This document shows, piece by piece, positions 39,474 to 46,237 of a DNA stretch of 64,000 nucleotides. The position numbers were made by a program, and so were the translations under genes. Below the pieces are notes generated by a model, which did no database searches, was not told where the DNA came from, and worked only from the letters and a program-made list of their open reading frames with translations. The stretch comes from Streptomyces fragilis. GTDB lineage: Bacteria > Actinomycetota > Actinomycetes > Streptomycetales > Streptomycetaceae. The stretch's first letter is position 1. Each line of letters begins with the position of its first letter. The stretch lies in NCBI RefSeq assembly GCF_003112515.1, contig NZ_BEVZ01000005.1, positions 248,001-312,000 on the forward strand, in the 5' to 3' direction.

Positions 39474-42143
39474 GTGACCGCCGTCACTGACCACGACCCC
39501 ACGGACCGCCCCGACCGCCCCGGCAAGGGGGGCGACCCCGGCCGGGAGCCCGACGGACGGGGGAGCGCCCACGCCGACGAGGCGGCGGACCCGGCCGCCG
39601 GCCACGGCGCCGACCCCGACGCGGGCGACGGGACGGGCTCCACCGGGGGCTCCGGGACGGACACGGGCGCGGGTCCGGGTACGGAACCGGGCGCGGGCCC
39701 GGGCACGAAGCCGGGTGCGGGTCCGTCCGGCTCCGACTCCGACTCGGACTCGGGTTCTGGATACGGCTCGGGCAGGGACGCGGGCGCGGGCAGAGGTTCC
39801 GGCGCGGGCAGGCCGTCCGGCACGGGACCGGGTGCGGAACCGGCCGACCCGGGCTCGGGTTACGGCCCGGGCGGGAAATCCGGCGGGGGCAGGCCTTCTG
39901 CTTCGGGCAGGGACGCGGGCGCGGCCGCCGGTACGGGCGGGGCCGCGACCGGAGGGACCGATGGGGGCCGTCGGGGTGTCCGGGGGTGGCTGCGGGCAGG
40001 TGAGGACGGCGCATCCTCCGAGCGTCAGGCCTCCCGCCGGCAGACGTCCGCCCGCCGTGACACCCCGCGGAACGCCGGCGAGGCCCCCGGCGAAGGCCGA
40101 CCCGAGAGCGGCCGTGACACCGACCCGCGTGGGGCCGGGGAGGCCCGTGGGCCACGTAAAGGCCGTGAGGCACATGAGGCGAGCGAGGCACACGCGGTGG
40201 GGGAGACGGAGGAGGACCCGGGAACGGTTCCCGGGACGCACGTGCGGCGGGTCCGGGTCGACGCCCCCGGAGCGGCCAGCGCCATGGCCGACGCCGACGG
40301 CGGGGTCCGGGCCGAGGACCGCTTCGGGGTCCGCAGGGGCGCCGCCGCACCCGGCTTCCCCGGGCCCGGCGGGTCCCTCGTCCGCCGCGCCGGCCTGGCC
40401 ACGAGCCCCCCGCAGCCACCCGTCTCCCGGCCGCTGATCTCCCGGGTGACGCCGTCCGCCTCCGCCGCCTCCACGCCGCAGGCCGCCGAACCGGTCTACG
40501 GGAGCCAGCTCCGGGGCCGCCTCGAGGCGTTGCGCGAACTGATCGGCATGTCCAGGGCACGCCTGGACAGCCGGGTCCTCGCCGAGGCCGGTCAGGTCCT
40601 GGACCGGGCCGCCGAACGCGGCTCGCTCTCCGGCCGGCACACCGTCGTCGCCATCGCGGGCGCCAGCGGCAGCGGCAAGTCACAACTGTTCAACGCCCTG
40701 GCCGGGGTCGCCATCTCGGAGACCGGCGTCCGGCGTCCCACCACCGCCGCCGCGCTGACCTGCAGCTGGAGCGACGGCGCCGCCCCGCTGATCGACCGCC
40801 TCGGCATCCCCGGACGCCTGCGCCGCCGCCCGCTGCAGAACGCGGAGGACGAGCAACGGCTGCACGGTCTGGTCCTGGTCGACCTGCCGGACCACGACTC
40901 GGCCGCCGTCCAGCACCGCGAGCAGGTGGACCGGCTGCTGAAGCTGGTCGACGCAGTGATCTGGGTCGTCGACCCGGAGAAGTACGCCGACGCGGTCCTC
41001 CACGAGCGGTACCTGCGGCCGATGGCCGGACACGCCGAGGTCACCTTCGTCGTGCTCAACCAGGTCGACCGGCTGTCCGGGGAGGCCGCCGACCAGGTCC
41101 TCGACGACCTCCGGCGGCTGCTGGACGAGGACGGCATCGCACTCAGCGAGCACGGGGAGCCCGGTGCGACCGTGCTGGCGCTGTCCGCGCTGACCGGCGA
41201 CGGCGTGGACGACCTGAAGGACGCGCTCGGCCGGTTCGTGCGCGAACGGGGCGCCGCCGCCCGGCGCATCGCCGCCGACGTGGACGCCGCCGCGGCCCGG
41301 CTGCGGCCCGCCTACACCACGGGCGTGCGGGCCGGGCTCACCGAGGAGGCGCAGGACGAGTTCGCCGACGGCTTGGCCGCCGCGGTGGGCTCCCGGGCCG
41401 CCGGTGAGGCCGCCGAACGAGCCTGGATGCGCGGCGCAAACCAGGCCTGCGGCACGCCGTGGCTGCGGCTGTGGCGCTGGTACCAGGGGCGGCGCGCCCC
41501 GCTCACCACCCGGCGGTTCGCCGTGGCCCAGCCCGCGGACGACGAGGCGACGGCCCGGCAGCGGGTGGAACAGGCGGTGCGGACGGTGACCGAGCGGGCC
41601 TGCCAGGGCATGCCCGAACCCTGGGCGCAGGCGGTGCGCGAGGCCGCGCTGCGGGCCGCCGAGGGACTGCCGGAGGAACTGGACGAACTGTCCCGGAGGT
41701 CGGCGCCGCCCGCACGCACGCCGAGACCCTTCTGGTGGCCCGCGGCGGTGCTGGTGCAGGCGGCGATGACGCTGGTCCAGGTCGTCGGGGGGCTCTGGCT
41801 GGTGGGGCAGATCGCCGGCGTGCTGGGCGCCGAACTGGGCGTCCCCGTGCTGCTGATGGTGATCGGCATCGTGGGCGGGCCGGCGGTCGAGTGGGCCTGC
41901 CGGGCGGCGGCGCGGGCCCCGGCGCGGCGCTACGGCCTGGAGGCCGAACTGCTGCTGCGGGAGGCGGCCGAGGAGTGCGGCCGGATCAAGGTGCTGGAGC
42001 CGATCGCCGAGGAGGTCGCCCGCCACCGCGAGGTGCGCGAACAGTACGGGGTGGTCAGCGGGGCCGTACCGCTGGGCCCGGGCGGCCCGGGCGGCAGCCG
42101 TTCACCCTCCCGGGTGGGGGAGTTGTCCACAGTCTCGCTCTGA
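39474..42143 (+). CDS. dynB: Dynamin-like GTPase DynB with membrane anchor
   Basis: An 889-residue membrane-bound partner of DynA. Residues 1 to about 320 are disordered: Asp/Gly/Ser repeats (TEPGAGPGTKPGAGP, SGSDSDSDSGSGYGSG), then charged Glu/Arg stretches. The GTPase domain follows: G1 GASGSGKSQLFN (about residue 398), G2 GVRRPTTAAALT, G3 VDLPDHDSA, G4 LNQVDRL, then a stalk. Two membrane helices near the C-terminus (AVLVQAAMTLVQVVGGLWLVGQ; LGVPVLLMVIGIVGGPAV) make a hairpin anchor, as described for DynB. GTG at 39474 is 3 bp after dynA, with AGGAG just before. An internal start cannot be excluded because the first third is low complexity. Confidence 0.88.
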   Translation: MTAVTDHDPTDRPDRPGKGGDPGREPDGRGSAHADEAADPAAGHGADPDAGDGTGSTGGSGTDTGAGPGTEPGAGPGTKPGAGPSGSDSDSDSGSGYGSGRDAGAGRGSGAGRPSGTGPGAEPADPGSGYGPGGKSGGGRPSASGRDAGAAAGTGGAATGGTDGGRRGVRGWLRAGEDGASSERQASRRQTSARRDTPRNAGEAPGEGRPESGRDTDPRGAGEARGPRKGREAHEASEAHAVGETEEDPGTVPGTHVRRVRVDAPGAASAMADADGGVRAEDRFGVRRGAAAPGFPGPGGSLVRRAGLATSPPQPPVSRPLISRVTPSASAASTPQAAEPVYGSQLRGRLEALRELIGMSRARLDSRVLAEAGQVLDRAAERGSLSGRHTVVAIAGASGSGKSQLFNALAGVAISETGVRRPTTAAALTCSWSDGAAPLIDRLGIPGRLRRRPLQNAEDEQRLHGLVLVDLPDHDSAAVQHREQVDRLLKLVDAVIWVVDPEKYADAVLHERYLRPMAGHAEVTFVVLNQVDRLSGEAADQVLDDLRRLLDEDGIALSEHGEPGATVLALSALTGDGVDDLKDALGRFVRERGAAARRIAADVDAAAARLRPAYTTGVRAGLTEEAQDEFADGLAAAVGSRAAGEAAERAWMRGANQACGTPWLRLWRWYQGRRAPLTTRRFAVAQPADDEATARQRVEQAVRTVTERACQGMPEPWAQAVREAALRAAEGLPEELDELSRRSAPPARTPRPFWWPAAVLVQAAMTLVQVVGGLWLVGQIAGVLGAELGVPVLLMVIGIVGGPAVEWACRAAARAPARRYGLEAELLLREAAEECGRIKVLEPIAEEVARHREVREQYGVVSGAVPLGPGGPGGSRSPSRVGELSTVSL

Positions 42144-42240: not shown

Positions 42241-42789
42241 ATGAACGAGACGGTGATCTGCGCGGTGGGGAACGTGGCGACGCAGCCGGTCCACCGGGAG
42301 GACGAGCGGGGTCACGTGGCCCGCTTCCGGCTGGCCGCCACACCCCGCTACTGGGACCGGGAGAAAGCCGTGTGGCAGGACGGGCACACGAACTTCTTCA
42401 CGGTGTGGACCCGCCGCTCCCTGGCGGCGAACGTGGCCGCCTCACTGTCGGTGGGCGACCCGGTGGTGGTCCACGGCAGGCTCAAGGTGCGCACCGAGAC
42501 GCGGGACGGCCAGACCCGCAGCGACGCGGACATCGAGGCGGTCGCCGTGGGGCACGACCTGGCGCGCGGCACCTCGGCGTTCCGCCGCACCACCCGGACC
42601 GAGGCGGCGACGCCGCACGACGCCGGGGCCGGCGCGGCACGGCAGGCGCCCGCGGCGCCTCCGGCGGCCGCATGGACCCGGCCCGGTGCGCCTCCGGGTG
42701 CACCTCCCGGTGCACCTCCCGGTGCGCCTACCGGCGTGCCGGACGATCCGTGGGGCGTACACCCGCCAGCGGGCGCCTTGCTGACGTGA
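42241..42789 (+). CDS. ssbB: Single-stranded DNA-binding protein SsbB
   Basis: A 182-residue SSB paralog. The OB fold covers residues 1-110 (MNETVICAVGNVATQPVHRE, FRLAATPRYWD, FFTVWTRRSLAANVAASLSVGDPVVVHGRLKVRT). The C-terminal part is Ala/Pro-rich with four PPGA units coded by exact 12-bp repeats (42685-42732). It ends GVHPPAGALLT without the acidic DDDIPF tip that replicative SSBs use to recruit partners. That matches the second SSB of Streptomyces, needed for chromosome segregation in spores. It lies 97 bp after dynB, so DNA segregation and septum closure genes are adjacent. Confidence 0.92.
   Translation: MNETVICAVGNVATQPVHREDERGHVARFRLAATPRYWDREKAVWQDGHTNFFTVWTRRSLAANVAASLSVGDPVVVHGRLKVRTETRDGQTRSDADIEAVAVGHDLARGTSAFRRTTRTEAATPHDAGAGAARQAPAAPPAAAWTRPGAPPGAPPGAPPGAPTGVPDDPWGVHPPAGALLT
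42685..42732 (+). repeat. 12-bp coding repeat in ssbB
   Basis: Four tandem 12-base units (GGTGCGCCTCCG, GGTGCACCTCCC twice, GGTGCGCCTACC) encode Gly-Ala-Pro-Pro/Thr units in the disordered tail. Confidence 0.9.
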
Positions 42790-42990
42790 TGTCACCGGAG
42801 GTCGTCCGGATTGGCTCCGGTTGGTCCCGCTTCGGGCGGTAACAATTGCGAGTCGGAACCCCTCCCGCACCAGGCTTCCCGCGGGACGCGGCCGAGGCTT
42901 CCCTAGGATGCCGGAGTGGGTCATGGGTCGATGACGCCGCGTACGGCTCCTGCGGCCCGCGTCACCAGGCCCTGACCGGAGGGGAGTTCC

Positions 42991-44442
42991 GTGAGTTCGT
43001 CGTCGCAGACGGGGTGCGCGCGCCGGTCCGGCGCGGTCCGTGGCGCCGTGGTGTCGTTGCTGTCCGGCCTGCTCGCCGTCCAGGGCGCGGCCGTCGCGGT
43101 CGCCGCCACCGGTGAGGCGGGCGGTCCCACGACACCGCAGTGGAACGCGGGCGGGGCCTCGGCCGTCGCCGGCGACCTGCGCGCGTTCGGCACCGCGGTG
43201 ATCCACGGCGAGGACGGCGACCGGGAGGTCCCGGCCGGGCTGTTCGAGCTCTCCGTGGACGGCGGCGGGACCCTGCAGACCTACGGCGTCGACATCGAAC
43301 GCACCACCCAGCCCGGAGTCGTCTACCAGGAGAGCGACTGGCGGGGCACCTCGCTCGCGGGCAACCGCGACGCCGGGCGCATCGTCTGGGTCCTGCGGCA
43401 CTCCTACCCGCAGGTCGACGACCTCGCCGACCTCGCCGCGCGGGCCCGCGCGAAGGGGCTGACCGAACAGGACGCCGCGGCCGGCACGCAGGTCGCCGTC
43501 TGGCGCCTCTCCGACGGTGCCGACGTGACGGCCGCCGACCCGCAGGCCGAGCGGCTCGCCGACTACCTGGTGAAGCACGCCCGCACGCAGAAGGAGCCCC
43601 GCGCCTCCCTCCGGCTGGACCCGCCCGCGGCCGCCGGGCGGCCCGGCGGCCGAATAGGCCCGCTCACCGTCCGCACCGGAGCCGACGACGTGACGGTCCT
43701 CCCGCCCGCCGACAACAGCCCGGCGTGGATCACCGACAGGGACGGAGGAACCGTCGAGACGGTGGACGACGGCGAGAAGCTGTACGTCGACGTCCCGGCC
43801 GAGGCCGACGACGGAGCGGCGACGCTCACCGTCGAGGCCACCACCACCGTCCCGGTCGGACGGGCCCTCACCTCCGACAGCCGCAGCCAGACCCAGGTGG
43901 TCGCCGCCTCCAGCGAGACCACCGTGCGCGCCACCGCCACCGCTGCGTGGCGGCGCGGCGGCGCCGTGCCGGCCGTGTGGGGGCGCGAGCGCTGCGAGGC
44001 CGAGGGCTCCGACAAGGCGTCCGGGCTCGACGTCACCCTGCTCAACCGGGGCGACATGGACCTCGCCTACCGGGTGGCCGGCACCGACTACGTGCTGGCC
44101 CCGGGCGAGCGGCGCACGGTCTCCCAGCCGCTGGCCGAGGACCAGGCGTACACCGTCGGGGTGGAGGCGGCGGACGGCAGGACGCTGCGCCCGGTCGTCT
44201 TCGGCGGCGTCCTCGACTGCCTCACCGAGAGCGCCGCTGCGGCCGCCCTGCGGACGCAGACGGCGTCCGGGCCGCCCAGCCCGCTGCCCACCGCCCCGCT
44301 CCCGGCCGGCGAGGACCTCGCCACCACCGGCGGAGGCGGCGGCACCGAACTCTTCATCTCGATCGGCGCGGGCCTGCTCGTCGTCGGCGCCGCGGTCCTC
44401 AGCGTCGCCCGCCGTCCCCGCCAGGACGCCCACCCGGAGTGA
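42991..44442 (+). CDS. Sortase-anchored TQXA/thioester-domain surface protein lacking the thioester Cys
   Basis: A 483-residue cell-wall protein. Signal peptide to about residue 40 (GAVVSLLSGLLAVQGAAVAVAA). The thioester domain spans residues 55-200 and keeps the AAGTQVAVWRLSDG motif with Gln167. However, the partner segment reads LQTYGVDIE, with Gly99 (codon GGC) where family members have Cys (TYCID). An internal Cys-Gln thioester can therefore not form. A beta-sandwich middle domain follows, ending in LATTG (443-447), a hydrophobic stretch and RRPRQDAHPE, a sortase sorting signal. GTG 42991 has GGAGGGGAG upstream. Confidence 0.88.
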   Translation: MSSSSQTGCARRSGAVRGAVVSLLSGLLAVQGAAVAVAATGEAGGPTTPQWNAGGASAVAGDLRAFGTAVIHGEDGDREVPAGLFELSVDGGGTLQTYGVDIERTTQPGVVYQESDWRGTSLAGNRDAGRIVWVLRHSYPQVDDLADLAARARAKGLTEQDAAAGTQVAVWRLSDGADVTAADPQAERLADYLVKHARTQKEPRASLRLDPPAAAGRPGGRIGPLTVRTGADDVTVLPPADNSPAWITDRDGGTVETVDDGEKLYVDVPAEADDGAATLTVEATTTVPVGRALTSDSRSQTQVVAASSETTVRATATAAWRRGGAVPAVWGRERCEAEGSDKASGLDVTLLNRGDMDLAYRVAGTDYVLAPGERRTVSQPLAEDQAYTVGVEAADGRTLRPVVFGGVLDCLTESAAAAALRTQTASGPPSPLPTAPLPAGEDLATTGGGGGTELFISIGAGLLVVGAAVLSVARRPRQDAHPE

Positions 44443-44572
44443 CCGTCCGGCGACGTTCCGCGCGCACGCCGCACGGCGTCGCCCGGACGGGCCGTTTTCG
44501 TCCTGGGGTGGCGGTACGGCAAGATGGGGTGTATCTGCCCACCGCGAGTTTCAAGCTGCCGGACGGTTTCTC

Positions 44573-46237
<1,665 letters not shown>

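Follow-up and report, generated by a model that had tools for sequence, protein, structure and literature searches.

A Class II thioester-domain surface protein of Streptomyces fragilis without its thioester cysteine, and the apparent recurrence of this change within the genus

The locus and its surface protein

Between the genes for a single-strand DNA-binding protein (SSB) and an EttA-type ABC-F ATPase, Streptomyces fragilis carries the gene of a surface protein whose thioester domain (TED) has a glycine codon at the position of the thioester cysteine. Thioester-domain proteins contain a rare reactive internal bond that allows them to attach covalently to their targets. No paper on the TEDs of Streptomyces was found in the collection of literature searched. 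The window analyzed here is a stretch of 64,000 nucleotides (NZ_BEVZ01000005.1, positions 248,001 to 312,000), and all coordinates refer to it unless another locus is named.

39474-42143, + strand: dynamin-like/YfjP-type GTPase, syntenic marker (PF00350, PF01926; synteny)
42241-42789, + strand: SSB, syntenic marker (PF00436; synteny)
42991-44442, + strand: gene for the Class II TED surface protein without thioester, GTG start, 483 aa (open reading frame and domain matches)
42991-43107, + strand: putative signal peptide, about residues 1-39, ending ...AVAVAA (basic n-region and hydrophobic core; cleavage site predicted)
43279-43584, + strand: Pfam TED (PF08341) match, residues 97-198 (profile search)
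43963-44220, + strand: C-terminal beta domain with Cys335 and Cys410, a probable disulfide (both Cys in all intact aligned sequences)
44317-44331, + strand: LATTG sorting motif, residues 443-447, of the class E sortase type LAxTG (sequence; specificity from PMC5148588)
44344-44439, + strand: hydrophobic stretch of the sorting signal and basic C-terminal tail (sequence)
44573-46237, + strand: ABC-F ATPase of EttA type, syntenic marker (PF00005, PF12848; synteny)
L218:4569-6089 (contig C4 of the same genome), - strand: second surface protein with a TED, 506 aa, in which SYCID and LAETG are intact

The position of a surface gene between housekeeping SSB and EttA-type genes (42241-46237) recurs in nearly every Streptomyces examined and makes for an unusual conserved neighborhood.

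In a Pfam profile search the protein scored 48.6 bits against TED (PF08341), for which the curated cut-off is 22, and it matched TQXA (TIGR03934) with 52.3 bits. Its signal peptide, LAxTG motif, hydrophobic stretch, and basic tail are together those of a class E sortase substrate, while the NCBIfam model strep_LAETG matched it weakly (15.6 bits against a cut-off of 30). LAxTG is present in all 162 intact homologous sequences assembled below, and in Streptomyces this class E sortase motif serves morphogenesis proteins (PMC5148588). The first-pass annotation had described the sorting signal and the remainder of the protein as intact, and our analysis agrees. The C-terminal part (43963-44220) is similar to domains at the C-terminus of bacterial phospholipase C (Z about 8 with 9gy2 and 8yk5), and the two may share a wall or surface module. 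In the second TED protein, the C-terminal part matches PLipase_C_C (PF05506) with 27.2 bits (cut-off 24.4).

Fold of the head domain and residues of the bond

The fold was approached with an AlphaFold2 model built from a 63-sequence alignment (pLDDT 87.9, pTM 0.84). The elements that bear on the thioester are as follows, with E and H marking strands and helices in model numbering.

43285-43287, + strand: Gly99 (GGC) at the thioester-Cys position, end of beta-strand C (codon; alignment; model strand E54-59 = residues 94-99)
43486-43503, + strand: TQxxPhiW motif, T166-W171, containing Gln167, on helix alpha2 (sequence and model; role from PMC6194298)
43609-43791, + strand: Class II-defining beta-sandwich insert, about residues 207-267 (model strands E167-E227; match to 6fwv)
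43813-43911, + strand: strand P/Q hairpin, about residues 275-307 (model E235-245, E252-255, E261-267)
43888-43890, + strand: Gln300, kept, the most probable former partner in the thioester (alignments; Gln in 144/144 Cys-type sequences)
43894-43896, + strand: Gln302, invariant neighbor and alternative partner (Gln in 162/162 sequences)

In the model, Gly99 ends a strand, TQVAVW (residues 166-171) lies within helix H119-134, and the run of strands at residues 207-267 comes after the helices, followed by a hairpin that contains Gln302 and has Gln300 at its edge. The top match among solved structures was BaTIE (6fwv; Z 14.1 over 242 residues, with an rmsd of 10.2 that spans two lobes), and the next were Class I TEDs (rmsd about 3) and other Class II TEDs (6fwy, 6fx6). 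BaTIE (6FWV) was also the best sequence-profile match among structures, with an E value of 3.5e-7, whereas a single-sequence phmmer search of the PDB gave no match. Class II TEDs are marked by an inserted beta-sandwich, and in published cases their Cys and Gln are spaced 171 to 204 residues apart. Judged from the model, the S. fragilis domain is a Class II (slipknot) TED like BaTIE.

A bond-forming Cys is recognized by the pattern [YFL]C-Phi-zeta, and the S. fragilis protein reads YGVD at this place. Codon 99 is GGC, in GGTLQTYGVDIERTTQ, and the TYC[VI]D motif has become TYGVD. The replacement of Cys by Gly at 43285-43287, proposed at first pass, is real, as all 144 Cys-type homologs have Cys in that alignment column. 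No other Cys was found in residues 41-320 of any of the 162 intact sequences, Cys-type or not, which rules out a relocated reactive cysteine in this subfamily, the possibility that the first reading had weighed against itself. Since the only Cys of the domain is replaced, the internal Cys-Gln thioester cannot form, as that reading had claimed.

The identity of the glutamine partner had to be revised. Gln167 of GTQVAVW, originally taken as the partner, is present, but in characterized TEDs the TQxxPhiW Gln sits on helix alpha2 and is unneeded for the thioester, and the bond-forming Gln sits on the C-terminal beta-strand Q (PMC4450167, PMC6194298). Gln167 is thus ruled out by the published structures. 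Two other glutamines, Gln300 and Gln302, lie in a stretch reading SRSQTQ[IV][LV]A and are invariant in the 144 Cys-type sequences. A profile alignment to BaTIE (6fwv) sets Gln300 opposite the Gln at chain index 235, which would be BaTIE Gln266 if the chain starts three residues before Glu35. Structure alignments with CpTIE, CpTIE-C138A, and SfbI (5a0g, 5a0d, 5a0l), in which the position was read back from the aligned ends without gaps, place the bond-forming Gln at residue 260 of the model, which is Gln300. Because profile and structure alignments both pair Gln300 with the known bond Gln, Gln300 is likely the bond-forming glutamine, still present after the loss of its partner. Gln302 would be the alternative, and the choice of Gln300 over it is one that we infer. 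In one Gly-type ortholog (G151; L052 / L146), Gln300 is also gone, with Pro in its place, so that both putative bond residues are missing.

Recurrence and selection across Streptomyces

Of 296 Streptomyces genomes, 295 contain a homolog. Among 162 distinct intact sequences, the site is Cys in 144, Gly in 14, and Ser in 4; pattern searches had enriched this set for non-Cys genes. In a set of about 157 best orthologs selected regardless of the residue at the site, nine lack Cys (6 with Gly, 3 with Ser). A search of 393 Streptomyces genomes with the pattern L-x-[TS]-Y-X-[VIL]-D-x5-Q, where X is anything except Cys (or Trp), returned 18 non-Cys TED genes, 14 with Gly and 4 with Ser, and none with any other residue in place of Cys. 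Fully eroded motifs would be missed by this search because the pattern requires the surrounding motif. Wherever the flank of a non-Cys gene was long enough for a check, the gene sat at the GTPase-SSB-TED-EttA locus, with some flanks partly covered. Other non-Cys pattern matches (G089, G105, G084, G003, G011, G379, G391, and others) were set aside as chance or repeated sequence on the basis of the matched sequences, and L042 (G224) and L045 (G276) have no TED reading frame. G089 and G105 (L184, L203) each hold four to five copies of a repeat that includes CTCAGAACCTACACAGTGGACGC; it is not a TED and is possibly a mobile element or an rRNA-linked repeat.

The first-pass annotation had proposed aligning close orthologs to see whether Gly is fixed. 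The closest relative found, from S. abyssomicinicus CHI39 (L033; 79% identity over the whole protein and 83% over the modeled part), has TYGVD too, with Gly fixed in this sister species. By this sequence comparison, the change of Cys99 to Gly is older than the split of the two species. Parsimony on a maximum-likelihood gene tree, built with the site masked, requires at least 11 changes between Cys and non-Cys. A flanking-gene tree gives 12; it is noisier and serves as a rough check only, since L084, L039, and L040 share hardly any flank with the others and are placed unreliably. Among the well-supported cases are L046 beside Cys-type L071 (support 100) and L104 beside L154 (90); L024/L084 is another (100 for the clade, 88 for its parent), as is a Gly clade of five members (98). 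Parsimony itself gives no direction, and Cys is taken as the ancestral state because it is found in BaTIE and in the same-genome paralog. How many losses are counted varies with the tree, and two close loss pairs could each be a single loss with a regain. With this understood, the sequences suggest that Cys changed to Gly or Ser about ten times independently in Streptomyces.

Several observations indicate that the protein is maintained in these lineages. All 18 intact non-Cys sequences are full-length with LAxTG; Tyr98, Asp101, Gln167, Trp171, and Gln302 are invariant across the alignment, these 18 included, and 17 of them keep Gln300. For the S. fragilis and S. abyssomicinicus pair, the head domain has a dN/dS of 0.136 at a dS of 0.34, a sign of strong purifying selection; 99% of comparable Cys pairs have higher values, and another Gly pair has 0.110, at the 0th percentile of Cys pairs. 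Across five closely related non-Cys pairs, the head-domain values run from 0.11 to 0.35. At the site itself only small residues occur, even though codons for Arg, Phe, and Tyr also differ from TGC by one base. It is the low dN/dS, the kept motifs and sorting signal, and the small replacements that argue for maintenance.

The same data bear on slow decay, in which function would have ended with the Cys and the surviving copies would be young pseudogenes-to-be that have lacked the time to break. The TED of the S. fragilis clade shows unusually high divergence when set against its flanking genes, which speaks for decay, and it deviates at 14 of 104 otherwise conserved positions, which could reflect partial relaxation in the past. 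A frameshift in one Gly-type ortholog (G138; L210:1800-3500), just past the TQVAIW helix, points the same way and makes that copy either a pseudogene or an assembly error. However, this is the only broken copy, the intact ones include that of S. abyssomicinicus, and several losses are old enough for the codons GGC, GGG, and GGA to have appeared. The dN/dS values well below 1 and the restriction to small residues also run against decay, which we regard as unlikely. The TED evolved faster after Cys loss in 8 of 11 lineages; since the sign test gives p = 0.11, no general acceleration is claimed.

A domain without its bond, and its known relatives

We consider it probable that this gene encodes a functional, non-covalent, thioester-less Class II TED of a kind that has evolved repeatedly. 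The product would be a wall-anchored protein that no longer makes its thioester, with a domain that still folds and that a class E sortase would display on the hyphal or spore surface. The former thioester pocket might bind a partner non-covalently, or the domain might act as a spacer. Covalent capture would then be unnecessary or costly in these lineages, and the protein itself would still be useful. That the domain would be folded, displayed, and non-covalent follows from the behavior of Cys-to-Ala TEDs, in which the structure is preserved and covalent binding is lost (PMC4450167). The structure of a Cys138Ala TED is essentially identical to the native one, and therefore the thioester is unneeded for folding (PMC4450167). 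Given a sorting motif of class E type, the protein might act on the bacterium's own surface or on a substrate rather than on a host. The first-pass suggestion of a pseudo-adhesin with a structural role is possible, but purifying selection and the kept Gln300 and TQxxPhiW favor a non-covalent function over decay.

Two further explanations would give the missing bond a substitute. In the first, the second TED protein of the S. fragilis genome, which has an intact Cys, took over the thioester job and left the present copy free to change. None of the 17 other non-Cys genomes has a second PF08341 match, so such a backup could explain only a special case here and not the recurrent losses, and we think it improbable. 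In the second, an isopeptide or ester bond is made instead by a different nucleophile close to Gln300, or by Ser99 in proteins of the Ser type. The retention of Gln300 and Gln302 after Cys loss, the Ser found in four genomes, and the ester and isopeptide bonds known in this protein class (PMC6194298) fit this proposal; Gly, however, offers no side chain for a bond, and the domain has gained no Cys at any other position, which makes a replacement bond more doubtful still. Finally, a misreading of TGC as GGC, which the first-pass annotation had entertained because the codons differ by one base, is refuted for this lineage by the Gly in the independent S. abyssomicinicus assembly and by the same change in many unrelated assemblies.

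If the reading of a functional, non-covalent domain is true, about ten natural and independent losses within one genus, under selection, would mean that a TED can do without its chemical harpoon and still be of use. Pairs of close Cys and Gly relatives offer a natural experiment on the role of the thioester in a soil bacterium. A broader proposition holds that thioester-less TEDs are a functional class, in which a core adhesin repeatedly switches from covalent to non-covalent by a one-base loss of its Cys while pocket, glutamine, and fold stay under selection. We give this proposition an even chance.

Among known systems, BaTIE (6FWV) is the closest in fold, sharing, by the model, the three-helix slipknot head, the beta-sandwich insert between alpha3 and strand P, the TQxxPhiW motif on alpha2, and the Gln on strand Q. 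The Cys-Gln spacing is 195 residues in BaTIE and 201 (99-300) in the S. fragilis protein. BaTIE differs in its proven Cys71-Gln266 bond (PMC6194298), where the S. fragilis protein has Gly99 at the Cys position, and in an LPxTG anchor and other C-terminal domains, where the latter has LAxTG. The Cys-type Streptomyces orthologs at the SSB-TED-EttA locus share locus, architecture, and sorting signal at about 50-57% identity; unlike the S. fragilis protein, they keep TYC[VI]D and hence presumably the thioester. Drosophila TEP6/Mcr is likewise a member of a thioester-protein group that lost its motif and kept an essential role (PMC5584532), an analogy only, as fold and kingdom are unrelated. The engineered Cys-to-Ala TEDs (CpTIE C138A, 5A0D; Cpa C426A, 4BUG; SfbI C109A) are also thioester-less with the fold kept, and 5a0d and 4bug are among the top structural matches of the model. 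These are laboratory mutants in which covalent binding was abolished (PMC4450167), whereas the change in Streptomyces is natural, recurrent, and, as the substitution patterns suggest, under selection.
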